In this document: piece by piece, positions 3,001 to 57,003 of the stretch
How positions within the stretch are numbered: the first letter of the stretch is position 1
Layout: each line of letters starts with the position of its first letter
Assembly (NCBI RefSeq): GCF_025602895.1
Contig: NW_026516331.1
Location: 55,985 to 119,984 of the forward strand
Direction of reading: 5' to 3'
DNA: 64,000 bases
From: Polychytrium aggregatum
Taxonomy: Eukaryota; Chytridiomycota; Chytridiomycetes; Polychytriales
Notes under the pieces: generated by a model
What the model was told of the DNA's origin: nothing
The model's input: the letters and a program-made list of their open reading frames with translations, nothing else
Databases searched by the model: none
Made by a program: the position numbers and the translations under genes

Positions 3001-3751
3001 TTGACCAAGGACTTGATTGCGGCCAAGGCGCAGGCCAGCGAAGGCGCGTCGCGGATTTTGAGCCTCGAAAAGGACTGGCAGTCGAAGGAAGAAGGTAACC
3101 TCATTGCTGGGCTCGGAGAAGCTCGGTATTGTCAGCAGGTCTTGAACAATGCTTATACTTGGGTTCCCGCTGGCCCAAGGATCTCGGTCGAACGGGAATG
3201 GGCAAGAAACAAACCAACTGATCGTTTTGCTGCCGTCCCAGAATGCTCCAAATTGACAAAACGCGTGCAGCGACTTCTGGAGGAAATGTCCAATAAGGAT
3301 CGGATCATTGACGGCCTACTTAATCCAGGAACTTCGGTATGCTCGATCGAAGAGTGCTTGCTATAATGACTCTACCTGCTCGGCGGCTGCTGTCGCCAGA
3401 TTGTCTTGCTCATCCCGCCTGCTGGACGTTGATTACCAACAGGATACAAGCACAAGCCTCGGTATGGACCAGAGGCTAAAAGGGGAGATTGAGAATGCAC
3501 AGCGCCAACTCCGCGAATACGAGCACAAAATCGCGTTGCATCGGACACGGGAGACGAATAGCGCCACAGAGGGCGGAACGACGTCAAAAGCCCAGGACTC
3601 TTCTGCCCTTCCGATCTCGAGTTTGAGCCTCGACAGGGACCGCTCTCCATCTCCGCCGTGGTTCTCACGAGTCGATCGCAGCATTGCGGGCGACGGTCAT
3701 CCAAAGAGGTCAGAGTCTGTCCTCGCGAGTGAGCAACTGTATAGCGTCTGA
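1..3751 (+). CDS. Long coiled-coil protein, CEP135/TSGA10 (Bld10)-like, 5'-truncated by the window edge
   Basis: About 13 short exons can be chained from the left edge to a TGA at 3751. Exon examples with good splice signals are 3-119, 362-581, 702-869, 1243-1428, 1504-1590, 2291-2520, 2680-2757 and 3444-3751. All encode heptad-rich, charged helix (segments such as EERDNMVLLYEQ and ELEAQKLGADLAALMKEN) with no enzymatic domain. The style and the repeated RD(N/Q)-x-LYEQ-like blocks resemble the centriole cartwheel proteins CEP135/Bld10 and their paralogue TSGA10. This is family resemblance by eye, not a search. The tail (about 3560-3751) is Ser/Pro-rich and non-coiled. The intron after 2757 has a GC donor (cag/gcaagt). 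A centriolar role would fit a flagellated fungus. A gtgagc donor just before the stop leaves open a further 3' exon near 3800-4020. Confidence 0.6.
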
Positions 3752-7100: not shown

Positions 7101-7409
7101 TACAGTCTATCGAGTTAAAAACGGGACACCCGTGTTTTTGACCATTGAACAAATATTTTGTTACCCAGTACCATCGCGCGCTGGCCATGACCATTCGCCA
7201 GTGTGTCCAAGAGCGCCATTCACCGCCGGCACTCCGAGACCAGTGTGCAGGTCGACTGTGGAGACCGGAAAGCGACCGGCGGTCTTCACTCGGAGGCTAC
7301 CAAAGTGATCTGTGTTATTTCCTATGGCTTAGCTTGACGCATGCCATCACAGACTTCGCTGACATATGGGTTGTGGGCAAGTGTCCATTACCCCTCTGAA
7401 TTAAGTGTA
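7101..7409 (+). mobile_element. Non-autonomous Fanzor/mariner derivative, 309 bp (copy 1)
   Basis: The left end starts with TA then cagtctatcgag and the core aaaaacgggacaccc. The right end reads in reverse as tacacttaattcag with a decayed core. Inside are a fragment of transposase start and helix-turn-helix (MTIR, then SKS-IHR-HSETSVQV), joined to the last 17 codons of the Fanzor gene (VETGKRPAVFTRRLPK plus stop) and its roughly 120-bp 3' tail. The transposase/Fanzor junction is the same as in the 384-bp copy at 48941-49324. Confidence 0.88.
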
Positions 7410-13441: not shown

Positions 13442-16105
13442 CTACAGCGTCCGACGCTTCTTCCCTATTCCCCAAGTCGCCCAAAGCGCAAGGAAGGAAA
13501 GCAAGCAGGCAAGAACGGCCAAAAGCGCGATGCACATCTGCCAGTGCACCAGTGTGTCCTCCTCCTCGCCTGGGACATAGACGTTCATGCTGCCGGAGGT
13601 GGGGAGGTGGTGAGAAAGCCACGGTGTTAGATGCAATCGGCACGAGCATTCGAATCCAGGCAGAGTGAGTCGAATTGGCGAACAACACCTATGGCGACCT
13701 ATCTCACCTCATTATCCCTGTGAATAGTGTGAGCGGAACGACGATGCAGCCAACGGCGGTGAGGTTCTGCATCGTCCTCGCAACCAGCTGTGCTGATGCC
13801 GTGACATGATTATTCAGCAGCGAGAGATATGTGCTGTAGTGGCTGTGTGGTCAAAGGCAGAATGGCTCAGATCCCATGTCGAGCCAGCGCAGCTCAGAGG
13901 AGCAGCCCCATCCGCTGCAGAGTCAACAGCCAAGACAGAAACAGAGAATACATACGCCGTCAGTAGGTCGTCGTAGTTTATCAAAGACTGCATCATGCAA
14001 GCGGCTCGGTCCTGAAGAACACACGCACGTTGGTTTAGTACAATGTGAGGCCATGACCTGCTCAGCCGTAGGTTGTCTGTCCACGGCGACAAATCCGCTT
14101 GGATTCAGCTCGACCATCAAATGCAACCGGCTCGGGATGCAGCTCCAGCTCACCTCTGCGCCTTCAAAGTACAACTCTAGCTCGTCCTGGAACCAGTCGG
14201 CGCTGCATTTCTTCCGGACAATGCGCGAGATGTGCACCTTCTCGATAAAGAGGCGCATGAGCAGAGTGGCACGCTTGCGAGCCGAGTGAATTCGTACGAG
14301 AAGGATGCTCGAATTGCGGAGAGTGTCGCGCGCGAGCAGTTCCTCGATAGCGTCGGTTTCGACATCGAGCGATTGAATCAGTGGCTCGAATGAATTGAGG
14401 ATTTGATCGAGAAGCTTGACGGACGATCGCGGCCGTTGAAGTGATGGGAGCGGTGGAGGTGATGGGAGCAATTGGGCGACTGTCAGGGATAACAGCAGTG
14501 ACAAACGTGCATGTGCATCCATTTCACCACACGGGCAGGGTGTTTCATGGCCATCGACCGAATGGGGACGGACTTGGAAGCCTCAGCGATGCGCATGCGT
14601 ACCAGGTATGCAATCCAGGTGGGCTCAAAGTATGCTGTGATCTGGTCCTTCACCAGGTTCTGGTTGTGTGTGTGAATGATGCCCAGACGCTGGACGACGT
14701 TTTGACAGTGCGGAATTGGCTCCGGATGGATGCTGATGATGCAGCCGTCGAGGACGATGATCGCGACGGGTATTGGCTTCAGAAGGCGAGGCCGACTGTC
14801 GTACTGATCAATGACTCTGGTGATGATGACAAAGTAGTTGTCTTGGGTCCGCGAGAGCATCGAGGGTGAGTTGCTGTTCCGATCGAGTTGCCTGCCGAGA
14901 CAACTGGCCAGCAATCGCTCCAGGTGTGTCCTGGCAAGTAAGCAAGCCCAGGCAGCCATCCAAAGCGACCTGCCCCTCCCCTGCCAGAAGCCTGAATCCT
15001 CCTGCGAACACCTCCCAGAGAGCTCACCAAACAGATCGCACTTTTCTCGCCGCAGCTCGTCCTGTTGGATGTCTTCGAGAGTCAGAGGATGGATGTCAAA
15101 GACCTTCTCGAGCAGATCGTATTCTTCGGGCGTGGGCTGTTGAATGTCGATCCAGAAGGTTCCTTCGTCGGCCCGGCTTCTCAGCCAGGTGCCATCGTCT
15201 CCAGCCAGCCCCTGTGGATTTGAAGCCAAGCCAGCGTGCATATCGACGACCATGGGTGCAGCCACGCATAAAAAGCAGATAGTGTGAGGATCGCTGAGGG
15301 ACGGACATTCCAGGGTCCATGGTGAAATCGGAGCACATCGTTCTCCAGAATAATGCAGGACAGGGCCGTCGATCACCCCGGCACTGGACCATACCAAAAG
15401 GCCATCGGTCTGAGCCACACCAAGAGCGGACGAGTAAAAGTAGCACCGCGGTTGCAGGATCGACAGGATCGACGGTGATCGCTTCATCCTGGACTCGGAG
15501 GGGATGTGCCCCTGGATATCGAGGGACGGGATGGGCCAGCCCAAACGAACATGCTTCTGGAATTCGCTTTCGAGATGGTCCAGATTCCATGTTTTGATCA
15601 GTTCGGCGTCGTCCTCGATCGAGTCGGATGATTCAGAGCTGCCGGACAGAGCCAACGAGAGCGAAGACTGGGCAATGGACTCATCGAAGCGGAGGTCGAC
15701 GGGATACTCTTGCGGCAGGCTGAGCTGCGAGCTTTCCGAGTCGGACTCGGACTCGCTGTCGGAGAAGAAGTCGAGCCGGATCGAGCGGCGCCGCTGGGAA
15801 AAGGACAGATCCCGGTCCCCATATTCATAAGATGCTTGGCTCGCTTGAGAAAGGGGGCTTCCACCTTCGGGCGGGAAGATCTTGGAGCCCTGGGTGGGCG
15901 TCGATGGCACCGGGAACAGCGGGATGCTCGCCTCGCTGGAAACGACCCGTGGCCACAGCACCTGGCTCTGGCGACGGCTGCTCTGCGGGGTGGTGAGGAA
16001 AATGGGCGGCAGGTTCTCAGGGCCGGGTTCATCTCGGCGACTGGGGGGGTCGAAGGACGGGGCCGAGAGCAGGGATGTGCGTTTGTAGGGGGTTCCGGAG
16101 GGCAT
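13442..16105 (-). CDS. CorA-family (Alr1/Mnr2-type) divalent cation transporter
   Basis: Six exons (16105-15028, 14841-14603, 14414-14154, 14011-13956, 13833-13708, 13589-13442) join in frame to 635 aa. The first 250 residues are Ser/Pro/Glu-rich and probably disordered. The CorA cytoplasmic domain follows: FWIDIQQPTPEEYDLLEKVF, IHPLTLEDIQQDELREKC-like, NYFVIITRV, IISIHPEPIPHCQNVV. Next come a long helix (LLDQILNSFEPLIQSLDVE) and two transmembrane helices at the C-terminus. Family role: Mg2+ uptake across plasma or vacuolar membrane. Oddity: the signature between the two helices reads TGIMSMNVYVPG, so the universal GMN is SMN; the Ser codon is split across the last intron (ag/c). Confidence 0.88.
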
Positions 16106-16146
16106 AGGGGCGATCGAAGCGACAGATGAGGGCCGGAGAATCAGGA

Positions 16147-16197
16147 TGTGATGGTGCGATGGCGAGATGGCGAGATGGTGCGATGGCGAGATGGCGA
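16147..16197. repeat. Octamer microsatellite (GATGGCGA and variants)
   Basis: Tandem gatggcga/gatggtgc units in the spacer between the divergent Mg2+ transporter and beta-lactamase-like genes. Confidence 0.85.
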
Positions 16198-16344
16198 GAG
16201 GGATGGCATGGGATGCGACGAAACCTTTTTTCGCTGTGGGCATGGGCGTTGTTGCCAAGGGCACGGACAAGGACCCTTGGCCATGTCCGCATTCCAATGC
16301 AGATGCCACGCCAATGCCATCCAACATGTCATATGCATGCCATA

Positions 16345-16412
16345 TCAATATCAATATCAATATCAATGTCAATATCAATATCAATATCAATGTCAATGTC
16401 AATGTCAATATA
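16345..16412. repeat. Hexanucleotide microsatellite (ATCAAT)n with ATCAAT/GTCAAT variants
   Basis: About 11 hexamers, alternating atcaat and gtcaat, 120 bp before the ATG of the beta-lactamase-like gene. Confidence 0.9.
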
Positions 16413-16531
16413 CGTGCCGCATCAGTGTCAATGGCACTGTGCATGTCATGTCTGATACCATGCCGGCATTGACACAACCGCATTGGCACAACCGCATTGC
16501 ACCCGCAATCACACCGGCACAGCGGCCGCAC

Positions 16532-19031
16532 ATGGCCCGCACGACCTCCTCCTCCCCCGGCGCCGTCGCCATCGCCATGGGTGGGTGGGGGGCCGGTGGC
16601 GCTTCCCGACACATCTCCGTCCTGCGGTCGTCCTGCTTGCCCGTCGTCCTTTGGCTCGCATCGCTCTTCCGTCTCCTCAACCGCCCCTCCCTCGATCTTT
16701 CTGCCGAGCTGCTCCAGATGGGCTCCCCCGCCAGCCGCTCCAACGACCCCTTCCACCCGTCGCGGCACACCCCCCAGTCCTTCTGGGAAAGGATCCGCTA
16801 CCATTTCAACTGGGCCCTCGACGACATTGTCCGCTACACCTCGCTTGACGACCGCTACAACCAGCCGGTGGTCATTGTCCTGGGCTGGACCATCCTGGTG
16901 ACCCTCGTTGTCCTGGCCGCGGCTCCTTTCGAGGTCTGGTCGCCATACCCTCGCTTGAGCTCTGATCTCGAGATCCTGCGCTCTCGTGTCGACAGCGCCG
17001 GCCTGGCTGTCGCCGTTGCCCGGAACGGCCAGATCGAGTTTGCCCAGGGCCTCGGTGTCAAGAATGCCAAGGGCGATCCGGTCGACGCCGAAACAGCCTT
17101 CTACATTGGCTCGACCACCAAGGTACGAGCTCGGATCCGTGCGGCGCCATGCTCCTCTGTGCAGCATCGGGCTCCTCCGGACGCATCGGGCTTCTCTGCG
17201 TAGCCGGCTTTCCAGTTCCAGGGCCACCTCAGCCGGCCTGCGTCGAGTTCTGGCTCCGGGTGACTCATTGGCTCTGCCCATATGGTAATGTTGCCGCCGA
17301 TCCCCCCGCCCAGCCGGGTTGCTGACTGTCCTCCTCGCATTTCGGTGTTGCCGTCAAGGCCTTCACATCCTTCCTTGCAGCCCTGCAGGTCTCGAACGGC
17401 AACCTGTCGTGGACCGAGCCCGTCCACCACTACGCCCCGCACATCAGCTTCTCAGACCCGTTCCTGACCGAGCGCGCAACACTGCTCGATCTTCTTTCTC
17501 ATCGCACGGTAAGCCCTATCGCATTGTCTCGCCACTGGACAGATATGGCTGCCCGACCCTTGCGACGGCGTTCCTGTCAGACTCACTCTGGCTCCAATAT
17601 CGTCGCCGCCAACCAGGGCCTCCCGCGCTATGACATCTTCAACCAGGTTGCCCGCAACACCGACGAACTGCTGGCTGTGGTGCCTCACCTGAAGCTCAAG
17701 GCGGACTTCCGCACCGATTACATCTACAACAACATCATGTTCGCCCTGTCCGGCACCATTGCTGCCAAGGCCGCGGGTCACGACAGCTGGAAGAGCTACG
17801 CCGACTCGCTGCTGGCAACCCTTGAGCTGAACAATACCCGCACCAGCCCCAGCGAGTTTGATGCCCTGCCAAACCGCGCCGACCCCTACATTTCCAACGG
17901 AACCTATTTCCCCGAGACTGCCAACGACGAACTTGCCACGGCCGGTGGCGCGGGGGCGATCTCGTCGAATGTTCTTGATCTGTCCCGGTGGGCCCAGTTC
18001 CTGCTGGGTGGGGCTCGCCTCGCCAACGGCTCGACCCTGGTCAAGCCCAAGGATCTGGAGATCTTGTTTACTCCCCGCAACATCGTCCCTGTCGATGCAG
18101 GCAGCCCATTGACTAGTTGTAAGTCTGGCTCGCCAGGACACCCCCCGACTCTGGTCTGGCCTGTGCACTCGCCCAAACTCTGCCTGATATTCGGTGCCTG
18201 CTTTTCCTGATACTCACCTCCGATCGTCCTCCGATCGTCCTCCGTATTGAACTGTCGCTTGCTAGATGCTCTTGGCTGGCAAATCTCTACATACCGAGGC
18301 ACTCCTGTGTGGTCCCACTATGGACAAGCCTATGGCTTCACCACGGCCGTGTGCCTCTATCCCGCCCACAACACCTCGGTTGTGGTCCTCTCGAATCAGC
18401 TGCAGCGCTCCGTCGTCGTCGTGTGCCCCATGGCCGCAGACCGGTACGCTTCTGCGATCCCGGAGCACCCATTCCTCGTCCTCGGACGGAGGCGTGCTGA
18501 ATATCCCTGTTGCTCTGCTGATCCGCTGGCATCGCACAACTGATCCGACTTTCTCTTTCACTCTCGCAACGATTTGCTGCCGCACCACTCCCTCCTTCCA
18601 GCGTGCTCTTTGGTGAGAAGCATCTCAGGCCCTCCCGACACATCGACCAGGCTGTTGCCGCCCAAACTGCCGAGCGTGTTGCTCTGGAGAAGGAAATCGA
18701 GGAGCGATACAGCAAACGCGCCAGCGGCACCACTCCCACACTGCCGCTCAAGGAATACGTGGGCAAGTACCAGAGCGAGCTCGGCACGATCGAGATTGCC
18801 AAGAGCAAGACTGCCGATGGCAAGCAGAGCCTTCGAATGGTCTTTGGCAACTTCAAGGCCGAACTGGCTCACTGGCAGTACGACGAGTATATTCTCCAAG
18901 GCGACCTCAAGCTCGGCGAGCTGGCTGACGGCCTGGTCGTTCTCAAGTTTGCAGTGGACTCCGATAAGGTGACTGCTGCCAGCTTCCTGGTCGAGCCCAC
19001 CATGGATTTCGTCGCTTTCGAGCGCGTCTGA
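16532..19031 (+). CDS. Membrane-anchored beta-lactamase-related serine hydrolase with DUF3471-like tail
   Basis: Exons 16532-17122, 17359-17508, 17617-18118, 18266-18443 and 18602-19031 join in frame to 616 aa. A single hydrophobic segment (PVVIVLGWTILVTLVVLAA, about residues 110-130) precedes the catalytic domain, suggesting a type II membrane protein. Class C beta-lactamase/LACTB features: SxxK as S194-TTK197 at the end of exon 1, YxN as Y284-N-N286, and a third-box region SHYGQAYGF. The last exon holds LPLKEYVGKYQSELGTIEI, typical of the DUF3471 domain that often follows such hydrolases. Family members act as peptidases or esterases; the substrate is unknown. ATG 16532 is preferred over an in-frame upstream start because it follows the microsatellite-rich spacer. 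Confidence 0.85.
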
Positions 19032-27303: not shown

Positions 27304-27750
27304 TACAGGCGAACCAATAATAAACGGGACACCCCAGATTACGAGCACTGATGGATTTCGTTGTCACCCGAGACCAATCCGCACTGGCCATGATCTTTCG
27401 CCGCACACCATCCAAAACACACACAGTGGTGGGGCACTTCGAGCGAGCGTCATTCCCAGACGACACCGTTTGTGATGGGCAGTGCCAGCATACACAAGAC
27501 AAATGCTATCCAGGACTACATCGAGCGCCGAGCGGCCGTCGACAAGATGTGCAAGGCCGTCCTGACGCACGCCCCGAGGCACACTGATGTGTGCGGCTCG
27601 ATTGTGGAGACCGGAGAGCGACCCATGGCCTTCACTTGGAGGCGGCCGAGGTGATCTGATTTATTGCATGTGACTTTGTTGGACGCAGGTCATCTCATGC
27701 TACGCTGAAACACGGATCGTGGGGGTGTCCTGTTCTTTCTGAATAGAGTA
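27304..27750 (+). mobile_element. Non-autonomous Fanzor/mariner derivative, 447 bp (copy 2)
   Basis: Left end TA-caggcgaacc then taaacgggacacccc; the right end reads in reverse as tactctattcag then a decayed gaacaggacaccccc. Inside, a transposase segment (HFERASFPDDTV, SIHKTNAIQDYIERR) is followed directly by a Fanzor segment (VDKMCKAVLTHAPRHTDV) and then the Fanzor C-terminus (SIVETGERPMAFTWRRPR stop) with the 3' tail. It lies 30 bp after the glucosidase II beta stop. Two internal deletions relative to the 3.3-kb element; the transposase-to-Fanzor order is the same. Confidence 0.88.
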
Positions 27751-48769: not shown

Positions 48770-48942
48770 TGCAGCGTTTCCAAAATGAAATGGGACACCC
48801 CCGTTTTGAGAGCGATCGGTGGTGTTCACTCGGAGACTGCCAAAGTGATCTGTTATATTTCTCATGGCATAGTTAGATGCATGCCATCGCATACTACGCT
48901 GACCATATGGATGGTGTCCCATTTCCCCCTGAATACAGTCTA
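48770..48942 (+). mobile_element. Minimal Fanzor/mariner derivative, 173 bp (copy 4)
   Basis: Left end tgcagcgtttcc then aaatgggacaccccc; the right end in reverse is tagactgtattcag then aaatgggacacc. Between the ends only the last codons of Fanzor (VVFTRRLPK stop, read with substitutions) and the 3' tail remain. It ends exactly at the TA (48941-48942) where copy 3 begins. Confidence 0.82.
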
Positions 48943-49324
48943 CACTTTATTCAGAAAAAAACGGGACACCACAGCCGTTTCCATGAACATGTAGTATGTT
49001 CTGTGCTTGCGTCAAGCAAAGCCACAAGAAATAAAACAGATCACTTTGGCAGCCTCCGAGTGAAGACCGCCGGTCGCTCTCCGATCTCCACAATCGACCT
49101 GCACACTGGTCTCGGAGTGCCAGCGATGGATGATACTCTTGGACACACTGAATATGGAGGCAACCTTACGCAGGCTATGGATGAGGTCGTAGCATCGCAA
49201 TGCGGCGGTGCGAAAGTCGGATGTGTGGCGAATGGTCATGGCCAGCTCGCGATAACATTGGGTAACAAAATATTCGATCAATGGTCAAAACCTGGGTGTC
49301 CCGTTTTTTATTGGATTGCCTGTA
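48941..49324 (-). mobile_element. Non-autonomous Fanzor/mariner derivative, 384 bp (copy 3)
   Basis: Ends: TA-cactttattcag-aaaaaaacgggacacc at the left; the right end reads in reverse TA-caggcaatcc then aaaaaacgggacaccc. Minus strand: transposase start MTIRHTSDFRTAALRCYDLI, then a helix-turn-helix-like LRKVASIFSVSKSIIHRW, joined to the Fanzor C-terminus and its 3' tail. That tail is nearly identical to the one at 53169-53330. The youngest-looking short copy. Confidence 0.92.
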
Positions 49325-51321: not shown

Positions 51322-51561
51322 GGATCGTATAATGGACGAGAGGAATAGCGAGAGCATATAAACGAAATTATAAACAGAACAGAGAGTGTGGTTAGAAGCA
51401 GAGCAAACATCGAGCCAGAAGCAGAGTTTGAGGAGCGGTATTACTCTGATCGCTGCCGCGAATCACTGCCTTCGGGAAAGATTTCGACTGCCTGTGCATC
51501 CATGATGCGGACCATGCGGCCTTTGTGCAGCCCCAAAAATGAAGCCTGGCTCCTTGCTTGA

Positions 51562-51650
51562 ATGGCAATAGCAATAGCAATAGCAATAGCAATAGCAATG
51601 GCAATGGCAATAGCAATGGCAATGGCAATGGCAATGGCAATGGCAATACG
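51562..51650. repeat. Hexanucleotide microsatellite (AATAGC/AATGGC)n
   Basis: About 14 hexamers switching between aatagc and aatggc, immediately after the stop codon of the 51655-53150 gene. Confidence 0.95.
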
Positions 51651-51654
51651 ATAG

Positions 51655-53150
51655 TCAGTTGTCAGTAGCCCGTTTGACCAAGGTGTTGGGTCTATCGCAA
51701 GCGTTTCCGCTCTCTACTCGCTTGTGACTGGATGACCTACCTGATCCCGCGCTGGTGCTGGTTTTGTAACTCGCCCGAGACTCAGATCGAGCCGAAGCTG
51801 TTCTCTTCCAATTCCACATATCTTCGTCTGCTTCGTCGTCATCGTCCGAAGAATCAAATGACCTGCCAGCCGAGGCTTTGGTAGAAGAGCCCCATGCGAC
51901 CCGGCTCGAAGCCGTGTCGGGCCGTTTGTAAACGCTCTCGTTTTTCTGCACCAGAGTTCTCTGAGATCCACCTGACTCGGGATGTGGCCCCGGCCTCTTT
52001 CGCTGCGCATGATGGGATGACGGCGGCTTTGGCTTGGCTTGAGGCTGGACGAGGAACTGGTTGGGTATCTCTCGGTAGAACGGCGAATGTGTTTTCTTGC
52101 TCTTTGAGCTCGAGTGCAGCTTGACCTCTTCTTCCTTCTCCCGGCGCTTCTGCTCGATAGCGGCTCTGTCACGGTCAGATGCATGTGTGATAGAGTCAGT
52201 CCGACAAGTATGCTTGGACAATCGGAAAGTTGATCCGCTGGATGCAAATCCAACAGAGAATGACCCCCCTCTCCCGCGCTTCGGCTGCCTCTGCGATAAC
52301 TGCGTACTTTCGCCGCTTCTCGGTCTCCTTGGCAAAGATTCGTGCGTTTCGATGCGCAATCTTTTGCAGATCCACAGCCTCCTTGAGCAGTCGCTTTTGA
52401 TGGTCCCTGTATTTTTGTCTGCTCGCGGGGATAAGCCGCTACAGCCGGTCAGGTCTCGTTGGCATAGCGGGAATGAGGCAGCATTTGGCACCCTGGCTCC
52501 ACTTTCCCACACCACAGCCACGGCCGTGCTTACGAATAGGCTCCGTGTATGAGCTCCTTGAGCATCGAGTCGCCGTAAACGGAGCTGGAGGGCGAGGCGC
52601 TGTTGCCTTTGTTCATGTTCAGTGGAGACTCCTCCGCTCCTGAGCCATCGTCGTGCGAATTGAGCAGCCCCGAGAGCGACTCTTGCGACGACGACCGAGA
52701 CGACGCGACTTTGGACGAGTAACTCGAGGTTGGGTGGTGAATGGGAGCTGCGTGTTGGGCAGCCGCCAGAGACGTGCTGGACTGCGAGGCCGCATTGACC
52801 CCTGTCTGCGACGGCCGCCGGTTGAGCATCGCGATGCAAGGGCCGTCCAGTCGAGAGTAGCAGAAAGGCTTGCCGACCCTGCTCAAGAGCCGCGCCGGGG
52901 TGTGCAGATACTGGGCAGAGAGTTGTGTCGTGCCTCGCCCGCGAGGTTGAGAGAACAAACACCTGGCTTGGTCACCGGAATGCCCAAAGATGCCAAGAGC
53001 ACTGTGAGGCCCCTGGGATATCTGCAGACTCGGGAATGGACTGCCTGGTGTGATGGTGGGCAACAGCACCACCCCGGATTTGTCGGCTGCGGAAATAGGC
53101 GGCTCGACCCGCCCTTGATCCAAGCGGATGCCGCCCGCCTGGTTGGCCAT
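51655..53150 (-). CDS. Unrecognised low-complexity protein with central coiled coil
   Basis: Exon 1 is 53150-52534 (MANQAGGIRLDQGRVEPP to KELIHGAYS), with Ser-rich blocks. An internal helical exon near 52410-52270 encodes LLKEAVDLQKIAHRNARIFA and ETEKRRKYAVIAEAAEARER. The last part (about 52170-51655) starts AIEQKRREKEEEVKL and ends in a Ser/Lys/Asp-rich tail with EDMWNW. The exact boundaries of the middle introns are uncertain. No known family recognised. The start codon lies only 18 bp from the end of the Fanzor element at 53169, so the native upstream region was pushed 3.3 kb away. Confidence 0.55.
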
Positions 53151-53168
53151 CGCCGAGCCCGACAGACC

Positions 53169-53198
53169 TACACTTTATTCAGAAAAAAACGGGACAAC
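53169..53198. repeat. Terminal inverted repeat, Fanzor-3' side
   Basis: TA followed by cactttattcag and a poly-A cgggaca core. It pairs imperfectly with the inverted sequence at 56476-56505; the core aaaaaacgggaca is shared. Confidence 0.85.
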
Positions 53199-53330
53199 AT
53201 AGCCGTTTCCATGAACAGTAGTATGTGCTGTGCTCGCGTCTAGCAAAGCCACAAGAAATAAAACAGATCACTTTGGCAGCCTCCGAGTGAAGACCGCCGG
53301 TCGCTCTCCGATCTCCACAATCGACCTGCA
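53169..53330 (-). ncRNA. Candidate omega/f guide-RNA scaffold at the Fanzor 3' end
   Basis: Inferred, not shown by sequence alone. In TnpB and Fanzor systems the guide RNA is made from the 3' end of the nuclease gene through the transposon end, with the guide in flanking DNA. Here the last 10-20 codons of Fanzor plus about 98 bp after the stop are the only internal sequence kept in all five copies in the window, and this tail is nearly identical in copy 3. The predicted guide would begin in host DNA immediately beyond 53169. Confidence 0.5.
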
Positions 53331-55634
53331 TACTGTGATCATGTTGCGCGCCGCATTGACGTCGCGATTCCACACTGTCCGGCAGCTGGGATTCTTGCAG
53401 CTCCTGACAAAGTGGGAATTCGCAACACTGGGCGCATCGAGTCCTTCCAACCGAACTGGCTCCAGGCACTTGGAGCACACCTGTGAGGTGTTGAACTCGT
53501 TCGTCGAGGCCACCTTGACGCTTCCGTGAGGGTGAGTGGGACGGCGTCGGTGGTGCTCGAATTGCTCAAAGTACTGAGCAAACCGCTGCCTCCGAGGGCT
53601 GGATGCATAGCCCTTGCCCTGTCGCCATGACGCATTGCCAAAGGCGATGACCACATCGGTCCGTATCGGGGCGTGCTTCAGGACGGCCTTGCACATCCTG
53701 TCGACGGCCACTTGGCGCCTCTTGTGGCCCGTGAAGCGATGGTGACGGGCCTTCTTGCCAAGGTGGAAGTCGAGCTGCACTCGCAGCTCCGGTCGCAGGA
53801 CATGGGTGAGATGGACCTTGAAAGCCTCCGAGGACGACACCTTGGGCGAGGGAGTGGTCGACATCCAGGTCTCGATGCTGAGTCGATACTTCATGGTGTT
53901 GTGCCACTTGGTGTTGGACGTATGGCCACACATGTGCTGGTAGTGGCCATTGGAGAACGAGACCACCTCGTCTTGGTGGCCCGGTGCTTGGATGACCGCC
54001 GTGAAGATGGAGCCGACTCCAGGATCGATGCCAATCCAAGTGGTACGGTTGGGGTCTGGGTCGCCGATGTGGGCCTGGATGCGCTGCTCGGCAGTCGGAG
54101 GAGGCTCGGAGGTCTCGGTGTGATCGGTTCGAGGCAGAAACTTGACGAGACCGATGGTGCATCCAATGCCATCGGTGCTGATCTCGTAGTTGAACAGCTT
54201 CTTGTTCACGTCCCGCTCTTGGAAGAGGGAACTACGCAGCTTGAAGCAACTGCGCCAGAGACGATCCTGGTTGTTGATGCCGTCATCACCTTCTTCCTTG
54301 AGCTTGTCCCTGGTGAGTCCAAGGCGCTTCTTTGGACCCAGGAGTTGCCAAAGAGTGACCGTGTCAATCTTGATGTATTTGGCCCTTGCAGTGCATAGAG
54401 GAACTATCGTGCACACGGCCGGAGGAGTGTCGACGGCGAGCTGCTTCAGTTCCCACTTGAGTCTGGATGCCAGCTTGTTGATCTTGGACTTGGTGGTGCC
54501 GAGCTCAGACTTGGCCTTGGTGAACCTCTTGTCGTCGGAGGGAATGCCTTGGGTAGTGAGCTCGTCCAGCTTGGCCTGGCGCTGCAGCTCGGTGACTCGG
54601 AGGGCGGGCATGTCACAGTCGATCCACTTGTGGACATTGTCGACCATCTTGTCCCGGGCGAGGATTCCCACATGGTGTGAGAGGCGGTGGAGGGCCCGGA
54701 AGCGGTCTTGGTCGTTGCTGTACCGAAACTCGTCCAGGATGTGGCCAAAGTCTGGATAGAGGAACTCGAGATCGGCCTTGGGTGGAGTCTGCCCTGGTTT
54801 CTCGAAGAGCTCGAGACAGGCCTCGATGGCTTCGTGCTTATGCTTGTTGGCTGGGAAGACAGCAGCACAGAAGCGGCGAAGGAGTCGCCAGTAGGCCAGG
54901 TCGAGGTGGGTGGTGCAGTTGGTGGCATAGGCATTGACAGCGAGAGTGAGAAGCTGACTGTGAGCACCATCAGGCAGACGAGGGGCCGGAGGCAGGTCTG
55001 CGTGCCGAGTGGTCTGGTAGTCGCGAAAGGAAGCGACCAGATGCTCGTTGTACTGCTCGATGTCCCTGGCCGTCGAGAGGGCACCGGCCTCGACAATCGT
55101 GAAGCACTGGCGGATGAAAGCAGGGGTGGACTTGGAGATGACGGGGACGGGAAGATCCTGCTCGATGCACCGGAGGATGTGCAGGTTGAGCAGCCTGGAT
55201 GCCTCGAACTGGATCTGGGTCATGGCCTCGACGGTGGCCTGGATCTTGTCGCGGAGAGCGGGATTGAGACAACAGCCATCCATCGTCTGCTTGAAGCAGC
55301 TGAACTGAGGGGCGGATGACCTTCCATCCACGAGTGGGACGACAGAGCTCTTGAGGGGCCGGTATTTGGGACACCTGTTGGTGTTGCAGCGTTCGTGATC
55401 GGTGCCATCGCACTGGCGACATCGCTTGATGGGGCCGGACGAGGGACCAGGCTCGGTGGGATCGACATCCATTGGATCTGCAGAAGCAGTGGTGGTGAGC
55501 GACGGAGCAACAGACGAACAAGCATGCGTGGGGTCAGAATACGAACCAGAGACAGGCTCCGACTGTGACTTGGCTTTCTTGGGCCTGGGTGGCTGAGGCT
55601 GGCCATCACCGGCACCCTTACGCTTCGGAGGCAT
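53268..55634 (-). CDS. Fanzor, eukaryotic TnpB-like RNA-guided nuclease
   Basis: Intronless ORF of 788 aa from ATG 55634; the open frame extends upstream to 55700 but without an ATG. The N-terminus is MPPKRKGAGDG, then a second basic cluster (PPRPKKAKS), a likely bipartite nuclear signal. A Cys/His cluster follows (C72, C75, H80, C83, C88). The RuvC-like core has WIGID537PGVGS (RuvC-I Asp). The usual TnpB RuvC-II Glu position reads VVIAFGN without Glu, and E713 in ASTNEFNTSQVCSKC takes the place known in Fanzors as the relocated catalytic Glu. The zinc finger has C720, C723, C746 and C751, and RuvC-III is NRD758VNAARN. All catalytic positions are present, so the protein looks active. Length and domain order fit transposon-associated Fanzor1 proteins such as that of the chytrid Spizellomyces. 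Confidence 0.95.
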   Translation of the reverse strand: MPPKRKGAGDGQPQPPRPKKAKSQSEPVSGSYSDPTHACSSVAPSLTTTASADPMDVDPTEPGPSSGPIKRCRQCDGTDHERCNTNRCPKYRPLKSSVVPLVDGRSSAPQFSCFKQTMDGCCLNPALRDKIQATVEAMTQIQFEASRLLNLHILRCIEQDLPVPVISKSTPAFIRQCFTIVEAGALSTARDIEQYNEHLVASFRDYQTTRHADLPPAPRLPDGAHSQLLTLAVNAYATNCTTHLDLAYWRLLRRFCAAVFPANKHKHEAIEACLELFEKPGQTPPKADLEFLYPDFGHILDEFRYSNDQDRFRALHRLSHHVGILARDKMVDNVHKWIDCDMPALRVTELQRQAKLDELTTQGIPSDDKRFTKAKSELGTTKSKINKLASRLKWELKQLAVDTPPAVCTIVPLCTARAKYIKIDTVTLWQLLGPKKRLGLTRDKLKEEGDDGINNQDRLWRSCFKLRSSLFQERDVNKKLFNYEISTDGIGCTIGLVKFLPRTDHTETSEPPPTAEQRIQAHIGDPDPNRTTWIGIDPGVGSIFTAVIQAPGHQDEVVSFSNGHYQHMCGHTSNTKWHNTMKYRLSIETWMSTTPSPKVSSSEAFKVHLTHVLRPELRVQLDFHLGKKARHHRFTGHKRRQVAVDRMCKAVLKHAPIRTDVVIAFGNASWRQGKGYASSPRRQRFAQYFEQFEHHRRRPTHPHGSVKVASTNEFNTSQVCSKCLEPVRLEGLDAPSVANSHFVRSCKNPSCRTVWNRDVNAARNMITVCRSIVEIGERPAVFTRRLPK

Positions 55635-55760
55635 GGGGGCAGAGGATGCTGGATGCCTGCCAGTGGTACTGGTCAGAGCAGAGACTTTTTTATCGTACAA
55701 TGGCGCGATGATCAGATCAAGGCGAGGTGAGGGAAGAAAGCAGCAGGACGAAGGTGTGGC

Positions 55761-55769
55761 ATTTATACC
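55761..55769 (-). promoter_or_regulatory. TATA box of the Fanzor gene
   Basis: ggtataaat on the minus strand, about 130 bp upstream of the Fanzor ATG at 55634 and inside the element, suggesting Fanzor has its own promoter separate from the transposase. Confidence 0.55.
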
Positions 55770-55884
55770 CGAGAGCAGGAACCCGTCGTTGCGGGCTGGT
55801 TGGGGAAGTGACCCTGTTCAAAAATCGCCGAGAGGTTCAAGCCAGGGATGTGAACGCGAAAATGGCGGCTTGATTGGAGGGAAC

Positions 55885-56448
55885 TCAACCCCAAATCGGT
55901 GGGGACTCAATCCCAAAGAAGTTCTCGATGGGATTGAAGTCGGGCGAGGCAGGTGGGGTGAAGATCACTGACCATCCTCGGCGCTCGATGCAGTCCAGGA
56001 CAGTCCTTGTCTTGTGCATGCTGACATTGTCCATCACAATCACAGAGTCGTCTGGGAAGGCCGCTCGCTCAAAGAACTCGACCATCGAGTGTGTCTTGAA
56101 TGATGTGGGGATGTACATGCGATGCAGCACACTAGAGTGGTTGATGGCAAATGCAGCCGAGACAGACTTGTGTTTCATGTGATTGCGCTGGCGAAGCGGA
56201 GCACCCTTCGGTGAGTATCCGTAGAGAGGGAAAATGGATCTCCTGATCCCTGTCTCATCGACAAAAACGAATCGTCGTGGGTCGATGGAGCGGACCTGGT
56301 CCCTGAACTGTGCCACTCGCTCATCCAGTCGCTTGGACTTGTAGAGGTGTGTTGCCCTCTTGTGTGAGAGACCTGCTCGCTGGATGGCAGTGTGGCAGAG
56401 TGAGAGTGATACTTTCCTCTGGAGAGTGGTTGTGTGGCGAATGGTCAT
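55885..56448 (-). pseudogene. Truncated Tc1/mariner (IS630 superfamily) DD34E transposase
   Basis: ATG 56448 to stop 55885, 187 aa, against about 330-350 aa for intact family members. The catalytic triad is present: D64 in FVFVDETG, D140 in VIVMDN and E175 in PDFNPIEN, with 34 residues between the last two. The N-terminal helix-turn-helix DNA-binding region is missing: MTIRHT runs straight into QRKVSLSLCHT, while copy 3 keeps LRKVASIFSVSKSIIHRW at that place. The frame ends a few codons after FFG. The open frame continues upstream outside the element only by chance, through a minisatellite. Likely unable to bind the ends. Confidence 0.9.
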
Positions 56449-56475
56449 GGCCAGCGCGCGATGGTCAAAACCCTG

Positions 56476-56505
56476 GGTGTCCCGTTTTTTAGTGGATACG
56501 CTGTA
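56476..56505. repeat. Terminal inverted repeat, transposase side
   Basis: Reads on the minus strand TA-cagcgtatccac then aaaaaacgggacaccc, matching the left ends of copies 1, 2 and 3 (27304, 7101, and 49324 in reverse). Confidence 0.88.
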
Positions 56506-56515
56506 AAGCGACATC

Positions 56516-56591
56516 CGATGGACATCCGATGAACGTTCAATGGACATCCGATGGACATTCAATGGACATCCAATGGACATCCGATGGGTCC
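56516..56591. repeat. 11-bp minisatellite (GACATCCGATG)n
   Basis: About seven copies with variants gacattcaatg and aacgttcaatg, 10 bp from the end of the Fanzor element. In the minus frame it codes for repeated HRMS-type residues. Confidence 0.9.
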
Positions 56592-57003
56592 GAAGCGACA
56601 GGAGCGATACCGCCCGATGGCGCAGCGGAGAGTGTGCCAGATGCAGGTCGTTTGTCGGGGGTCGCGCCGTTTCCTGCATCGATTTTGCCCTCGCTGTCCG
56701 TTCCAGCAATCGCCGGCTGCCGTCCGCCCTGCATTTGCCCAGCCTCGCACTCTCGAATCTCACCGCCCGGGCGCTGCTCCTGCTGCACTGTCCGCCTCCC
56801 CCGATCCCGTCTCCGAGCATCACCGGCTATCCAACGAGCGCGGAGTGATGCTGCTGACCATCCCCGTATCTTTTGTACACACATCAATATCCGGACCCGG
56901 CTCCTTCGCCCTCGACCGAGCTTAGCCATCGTCGTTCGGTCGCCCCACCTGCTCTGCCTCCCGCCAGGCGGCCTCCAGCGCTTCTTTCGCGGCGGATCGC
57001 TCG

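Follow-up and report, generated by a model that had tools for sequence, protein, structure and literature searches.

A Fanzor-carrying Tc1/mariner-type element family in Polychytrium aggregatum, with a one-sided T at its insertion sites and flank-matching scars at its left tip

The Fanzor frame and the element that carries it

The window analysed here is a 64,000-nucleotide stretch of the genome assembly of the chytrid Polychytrium aggregatum (contig NW_026516331.1, positions 55,985 to 119,984 of the forward strand). It contains a transposon that encodes a putative RNA-guided nuclease of the Fanzor family together with the remains of a transposase. The features of this element, in positions of the window, are the following.

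53171..56503, minus strand: Tc1/mariner-type element carrying the Fanzor, 3.3 kb, delimited by the ends common to the fetched copies and by an inverted-repeat pair
53268..55634, minus strand: probable Fanzor (Fanzor1-type) ORF including its stop codon, with DPG at residues 537-539, E713, C720/C723/C746/C751, and R757-D758
55762..55767, minus strand: TATA-like box TATAAA upstream of the Fanzor ATG, held in a 13-base word that recurs among the copies
55885..56448, minus strand: broken DDE transposase frame of 187 aa plus stop, matching PF13358 at E 1.4e-21, without part of the N-terminal region and without the C-terminus
53169..53196, no strand: right terminal inverted repeat with its flanking TA, 28 nt, 79% complementary to 56478-56505
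56478..56505, no strand: left terminal inverted repeat with its flanking TA, 28 nt, the pair of 53169-53196

The first-pass annotation of this DNA had claimed an open frame of 788 aa, and the frame is indeed uninterrupted across 53268-55634 on the minus strand, starting from the ATG at 55634. The residues it had singled out are likewise found at their places in the translation and are conserved across the aligned copies of the family: D537, E713, D758, C720, and C723 are kept in every copy that reaches each position, whereas C746 and C751 each differ in a single copy. This alignment comprises the 34 of 41 copies in which the MPPKRK start is retained, some of them truncated. The basic nuclear signal proposed earlier corresponds to the stretch PPKRK...RPKKAK, located by eye at the N-terminus, and the proposed TATA box to TATAAA at 55767-55762; the word that contains it, GGGTATAAATGCC, is found upstream of the ORF in 37 of 40 copies.

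Homology among 40 fetched copies extends upstream of the Fanzor ORF into a DDE_3 transposase encoded on the same strand and stops at common ends; one copy, L021, is without a recognisable left end. The window element is flanked by TA at 53169-53170 and at 56504-56505, and TA directly follows the right end at 66 of 70 insertion sites in the family. The transposase has a D-34-E spacing, as counted by eye on the translation. A DDE/D transposase, inverted ends, and TA flanks place the element in the Tc1/mariner (IS630) group, the duplication of TA being read from the flanks of occupied sites. The transposon setting given by the first-pass annotation therefore stands, with inverted ends and TA flanks added, and is corrected to a high-copy family with a DDE transposase that is broken in the window copy.

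The genome searched comprises 64.7 Mb in 418 contigs. It has numerous strong matches to chitin synthase, reaching 765 bits, as would suit a fungal host; these are weak evidence, because that family also gives matches in 4 of 14 bacterial control genomes. Words from the Fanzor ORF, allowing up to two mismatches, occur at 250 and 247 places (reversed-pattern controls, 0), and a word from the right end occurs 262 times (control, 0). Besides the window, 39 places align with the ORF over its whole or almost whole length at 96-97% identity, these being taken from the best 40 of 1054 candidates. Many Fanzor loci are present on two contigs with matching flanks, which we take to mean that the assembly holds two haplotypes and that the distinct Fanzor sites are fewer than the approximately 250 suggested by the word counts. 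The window also contains three shortened relatives of the element:

48941..49324, minus strand: short deletion derivative ("ghost") of the Fanzor element family, with flanking TAs
7101..7409, plus strand: older ghost of the family, with flanking TAs
27304..27750, plus strand: older ghost of the family

Of the 40 fetched copies, 31 have an intact Fanzor frame; since those fetched are the best DNA matches to the window, this share is probably an upper estimate. Computed over these 31 intact frames, pN/pS is 0.32 overall and 0.23 for codons 530-790. This pattern, as read from the copies, points to purifying selection on the frame, which argues that the nuclease is functional. The copies could instead be decaying, inactive relics, as nine of the 40 are without an intact frame and a stop codon occurs in six of the 57 best protein matches; however, the overall pN/pS and the retention of the catalytic residues in the aligned copies that reach them make this very improbable. 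The transposase frame is constrained as well: its 310 aa are whole in 13 of 39 aligned copies (the window copy among the 39), with pN/pS of 0.23 and 0.18 in two stretches.

Family membership and the candidate guide RNA

The window protein almost certainly belongs to the Fanzor family. Residues 706-765 match the zinc-ribbon Pfam Cas12f1-like_TNB (PF07282) at E 6.2e-9 and 36.3 bits, above the cut-off of 26.3. The superfamily motif given in passages of PMC3627910, D-X(125,275)-[TS]-[TS]-X-X-[C4 zinc finger]-X(5,50)-RD, fits the protein throughout, with D537, T716-S717-Q-V-C720, the cysteines C720/C723/C746/C751, five further residues, and R757-D758. Both fingerprints that separate Fanzors from TnpBs in passages of PMC10711439 are also present, namely D537-P538-G539 and E713-x6-C720. 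The exact expression DPGx(120-160)ExxxxxxCxxCx(12,18)CxxCx(4,8)D, which according to the same passages served there for finding TnpBs, does not match the window protein, in which 173 residues separate G539 from E713, 22 separate the two cysteine pairs, and the second pair has the form CxxxxC. With the NCBIfam model guided_TnpB (NF040570) the protein scores 25.3 bits (E 8.5e-6), below the curated 100 bits; judged by this score, it is related to, but distinct from, ordinary TnpB.

Comparisons with sequences in the PDB give weak matches. The whole protein has no match there at E 0.01; when E is allowed up to 10, LaTranC (twice), SpuFz1, and an antibody appear, all at E of at least 0.47. Its C-terminal 276 aa give five weak matches at E 0.1-0.97, to LaTranC (twice), SpuFz1, GtFz1, and an antibody chain, LaTranC being presumably a TnpB-related protein. 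A profile built from 26 copies has SpuFz1 as its single match, a weak one (E 0.095, with E up to 10 allowed), which runs through CxNPxC, WNRD, and RPxVFxR near the C-terminus. PADLOC and PHROGs return weak matches only, mainly of the Cas12f or transposase type and in the C-terminal part. The Fanzor identity first proposed is thus supported by the DPG motif, the relocated glutamate, the C4 finger followed by RD, and the weak profile match to SpuFz1. As the protein is encoded in a eukaryotic transposon of a non-IS607 kind, with a DDE_3 transposase, inverted ends, and TA flanks, it is very probably a Fanzor1.

The viral contigs that were searched contain no relative of the window Fanzor protein. 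Of the degenerate motifs run on viral contigs, one is without a match and another has two matching stretches.

The element is a new member of an already known kind. It resembles SPu-1 of Spizellomyces punctatus, the element of SpuFz1, which passages of PMC10432273 and PMC3627910 describe as a fungal element that encodes a Fanzor1, has inverted ends of approximately 30 bp flanked by TA, shows conserved bases ahead of its left end, and has ghosts that retain both ends; the C-terminal WNRD and RPxVFxR of the two proteins align. However, SPu-1 carries a single ORF of 633 aa whose target-adjacent motif (TAM) is CATA, whereas here a 788-aa protein shares the element with a transposase and the predicted motif is TTA. 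Moreover, 42 full or partial SpuFz1 loci are reported in those passages, in contrast to about 250 ORF places here, counted over two haplotypes. PUl-1 and PGv-1, compared here by their description in passages of PMC3627910, each encode both a Fanzor1 and a Mariner-like transposase and have TA duplications, as in the present family; PGv-1 differs in being single-copy and in carrying a further endonuclease. These passages do not mention left-tip scars or a one-sided T. According to passages of PMC12633428, a Fanzor-encoding element is also the commonest repeat in a diploid genome, that of the alga Auxenochlorella; this likeness is drawn from description and not from sequence, the element being uncharacterised in that paper.

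For the RNA component, the following candidates can be named.

53169..53336, minus strand: candidate guide-RNA (omega RNA) scaffold at the right end, with provisional limits; it takes in the last 22 codons of the Fanzor ORF together with its stop
53149..53168, minus strand: candidate guide, the flank of the window copy just past the right-end TA, assigned from known Fanzors

Placement of the candidate scaffold at the right end follows the analogy with SpuFz1 and GtFz1, and this region is retained by several short deletion derivatives. A guide transcript at the right end had already been proposed in the first-pass annotation with a stop at 53169; its location is kept, and the stop is now predicted about 15 nt beyond, in line with passages of PMC10432273. 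The candidate RNA folds barely better than shuffled sequences (z -0.31 for 106 nt and -0.46 for 169 nt); over their final 54-55 nt, two young copies reach z -1.76 and -1.90, and four older ghosts lie between -0.90 and +0.92. Covariation is weak, and the folding signal in the right end is at best suggestive. Rfam models, applied at gathering thresholds, have no match within the window. Low third-position diversity towards the ORF end was rejected as a proof that a guide RNA overlaps the frame, since other parts of the ORF are equally low, and the breakpoint that short derivatives share near position 3578 is weakened as a marker of the guide-RNA start, since some of them seemingly share one ancestor.

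A one-sided T and scars at the insertion sites

With many near-identical copies in one genome, the insertion sites themselves become informative on the role of a Fanzor in its transposon. The site of the window copy contributes one further feature:

56504..56506, minus strand: candidate target-adjacent motif TTA, formed by a flanking T and the left TA

Among 70 sites whose right flanks are all different, 65 have T ahead of the left TA, a count made after one site with a truncated right flank was dropped; by sample, T is present at 34/36 first sites, 20/22 new sites, and 12/13 more. Left out before counting were three duplicates, L021, L079/80, L085/86, L115, and L116 (same sites or flankless), and eight ghosts. 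As background, T precedes TA in 365 of 2641 occurrences in the window, counted on both strands. There is no mirror preference at the other end, where A follows the right TA at only 15 of 66 sites, and the T bias differs between left and right in the first two samples at a Fisher p of 1e-13. A symmetric transposase preference for TTA/TAA would give A after the right TA equally often, and the count of 15 in 66 therefore speaks against it. Judged by eye, the flanks of L012 and L038, which consist of tandem repeats, point to the target as the source of the base that precedes the left TA.

According to passages of PMC10432273, a conserved CA precedes the left repeat of SpuFz1 elements, the SpuFz1 nuclease needs CATA, and the TAM of GtFz1 is TTAAN. 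From the one-sided T and these two motifs we therefore predict that the target motif of the window Fanzor is 5'-TTA or a motif containing TTA; as deduced from insertion sites, it resembles the CATA of SpuFz1.

A second irregularity lies at the left tip, which after the TA commonly reads CAGGC(A/G)ATCC. In some copies the tip diverges from this and matches the copy's own right flank after the TA, over 10 nt in L010, 9 in L103, 8 in L118, and 7 in L112. Further matches extend over 5 nt in L017 and L006, 4 in L089, 3 in L075 (with one inserted base), 2 in L020, and 1 in L125; L020, L125, and L006 offer just one or two informative bases. Tips scarred in this manner occur at 10 of the 66 sites with a right TA, or about one insertion in seven. 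All eight copies that combine a non-C left tip with a right TA match their own right flank at the tip base; L071 has a non-C tip and no right TA. L017 and L112 have an identical tip (GTGGCA) at different sites, and in each it fits the copy's own flank.

Summed over the 66 sites with a right TA, the common prefix of left tip and own right flank is 85, versus 28.6 expected from shuffled flanks (pooled permutation test, p <= 1e-5). The first sample, in which the pattern was noticed, gives p 2e-5 over 34 sites, and the second, fetched after the idea had been formed, p 1e-4 over 19 sites. For the third, planned at 25 copies and comprising 13 distinct new sites in 15 copies, predictions were written beforehand and were borne out (p 9e-4). 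A run that includes ghosts, over 57 sites, gives p <= 1e-5, also without L010. Some deviations in the tip do not fit the own flank (L067 at position 2, L018 at position 4, L093 at position 3, and L020 at position 5), and of the eight copies with the CGGG tip variant, two (L069 and L113) have an own flank that matches the G at position 2. As the matches range in length from 1 to 10, they are not explained by the fixed 2-bp TA duplication. In the parts of the Fanzor literature that were searched (transposon, homing, TnpB, and retention; for the most part papers outside subscription journals), no report of such scars was found, and as evidence for the role of a Fanzor they may be new.

Cut-and-copy and its alternatives

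Taken together, the scars and TTA make it fairly probable that the Fanzor cuts the intact target past TTA and that repair copies the element in from the right. The transposase would first insert the Tc1/mariner-type element at TA. Transcription across the right end and approximately 15-20 nt into the flank would then yield an RNA that guides the Fanzor to a target consisting of 5'-TTA followed by the right-flank sequence, which is the uninterrupted insertion site as present in an empty allele or in a donor rejoined after excision. The cut would fall inside this target, some 10-20 bp beyond TTA, and repair would copy the element in from the occupied chromosome. The left side would usually be trimmed to TTA, giving a perfect copy; occasionally, a few target bases would survive and be joined to the element via short homology, leaving a left-tip scar. 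The guide RNA, RNA-guided cutting, the position of the cut, and the Fanzor as maker of the break are all parts of this scheme that we infer.

Several observations are consistent with cut-and-copy. Target bases lie between TTA and the element, which points to a break inside the intact target, to the right of TTA. A transposase cutting at the element ends should leave no such bases, whereas a Fanzor guided by the right flank would cut there. The longest scar, 10 nt, is within the 16-21 nt past the motif at which SpuFz1 cuts according to passages of PMC10432273. The right junction is mostly regular, with its TA at 66 of 70 sites, which suggests that copying began from that side.

Scars could also be mimicked by template switching in the repair of transposase cuts, and on this basis the Fanzor might be a passenger: TTA would then be a preference of the transposase, and the scars would arise when repair switches from the empty homologue to the occupied sister. 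The constraint on the transposase frame and its integrity in a third of the aligned copies fit such an account. However, T is preferred on one side of a target, TA, that is itself symmetric; the scars require left target bases past the TA, of which transposase cuts at the ends should presumably leave none; and the Fanzor codons are themselves under constraint. We therefore regard a passenger role as unlikely.

Under cut-and-copy, the scars fit a cut in an empty allele (homing) and a cut in a rejoined donor (retention) equally well. Homing endonucleases cut the empty allele and spread via repair from the occupied one, with a recognition that is fixed and encoded in the protein. The Fanzor of this family may, tentatively, be a reprogrammable homing nuclease that takes its own flank as guide, so that empty alleles bearing TTA are cut and the whole element is copied in; the target would thereby follow the flank of each insertion, unlike the fixed recognition of homing endonucleases. 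A bacterial likeness is the TnpB plasmid gene drive described in passages of PMC11870625, in which an RNA-guided nuclease cuts element-free copies and favours element-bearing ones; it concerns IS200/IS605 elements on plasmids, whereas here a eukaryotic DDE transposon at chromosomal sites is involved. If homing is correct, RNA-guided drive would have helped a single family to some 250 places, and target bases at the left tip would be its diagnostic mark. Should this reading of the motif and the scars be right, TTA could be assayed directly, natural drive of this kind in eukaryotes could be put to the test, and any Fanzor family with many insertions could be examined in the same manner from sequence alone.

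Joined flanks of 35 sites (L032 left out and L033 shortened) were compared with the genome, and no empty site is among the matches listed (the best 40 candidates for each of three queries, of 584 for the third). A second contig carries both flanks for 21 sites, and in 20 of these the flanks are 3.4-3.9 kb apart among the matches listed; for the pair L017/L060 they are about 0.3 kb apart. The partner of the window copy, L041, is also near full length, and the partner of L020 is a 1.1-kb derivative, L044. For L009, L018, L020, L022, L026, and L033, one flank only is found on another contig among the matches listed. We rejected the absence of empty alleles as proof of homing, because flanks are at most 0.4% apart between haplotypes in the four pairs aligned, and insertions older than the haplotypes, as these may be, would look alike.

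Retention only, a sub-case of cut-and-copy, would have rejoined donor sites re-cut and the element restored from the sister, with no spread to empty homologues. It would require footprint-free excision, which is uncommon for Tc1/mariner elements, and no empty allele is among the matches listed for the tested sites, although old insertions would give the same picture. Retention would leave the same scars and have the same TTA requirement, and in bacteria TnpB keeps its IS from being lost when it transposes and acts as its drive across plasmids (passages of PMC11870625). On balance, we consider it improbable that retention is the whole of the process.

A further set of comparisons bears on possible exchange among copies. 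Four allelic pairs were aligned; in all of them substitutions in the flanks amount to 0 to 0.4%, whereas the Fanzor ORFs are 0.6 to 4.4% apart. Linkage among Fanzor copies is gone within 200 bp. Ectopic conversion is one reading of the divergent ORFs and lost linkage, and repeat polishing is another; scrambled linkage alone was not accepted as proof of gene conversion, because polishing could produce it. Two structural cases speak for conversion. L020 and its partner L044 have the same flanks, but L044 is a deletion derivative whose junction is that of L051, at a different site. L017 and L060 likewise have the same flanks, but L060 is a derivative whose join coordinates recur in L052 elsewhere.

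Allelic copies and deletion derivatives

At each of four insertion sites, the Fanzor ORFs of the two haplotypes differ by 0.6–4.4%, while their flanks are nearly identical. The allelic pairs compared were window 53400–55911 with its partner L041 (C79:596300–600100) and, elsewhere in the assembly, L005/L011, L014/L023, and L034/L037. The majority of the bases that differ between allelic ORFs also occur in other copies of the family. The divergence may reflect either gene conversion or an artefact of repeat polishing.

At two further sites the partner contigs differ in what they carry: the element is full in L020 and L017, whereas their counterparts at the same sites, L044 and L060 respectively, are deletion derivatives. 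The deletion join of L044 is that of L051, and the join of L060 is that of L052, each a derivative at an unrelated site.

Right flanks and the right TA

The right flanks of L032, L029, L071, and L114/L050 resemble an end of the Fanzor element family, which in L032, L071, and L050 is the left end; the predicted guides of these copies, read from their own flanks, would thus be directed at junctions or remnants of the family itself. The right TA is absent at 4 of 70 insertion sites (L004, L005, L065/66, and L071/72), possibly reflecting mutation or a one-sided repair that proceeded from the opposite side. L005 and L071 are also two of the five sites lacking TTA, the predicted target-adjacent motif.

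Family remnants and neighboring features in the window

This single 64-kb window contains the right ends of four family ghosts (deletion derivatives or remnants), all of them old or short, in the stretches listed here, and ghosts may outnumber full copies:

7101–7409, older ghost with its flanking TAs
27304–27750, older ghost
48845–48942, ghost right end
48941–49324, short deletion derivative with its flanking TAs

The last two lie tail to tail and have the TA at 48941–48942 in common.

Two simple repeats were identified by eye near the Fanzor element:

51560–51655, GCCATT-like tract
56508–56610, ATGTCCATCGG-like minisatellite

The window copy appears to have inserted beside the minisatellite. 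Separately, an open frame of 956 aa (14486–17353, minus strand) has a weak match to CorA-like Mg2+ transporters (E 2.9e-5, under the Pfam cut-off).
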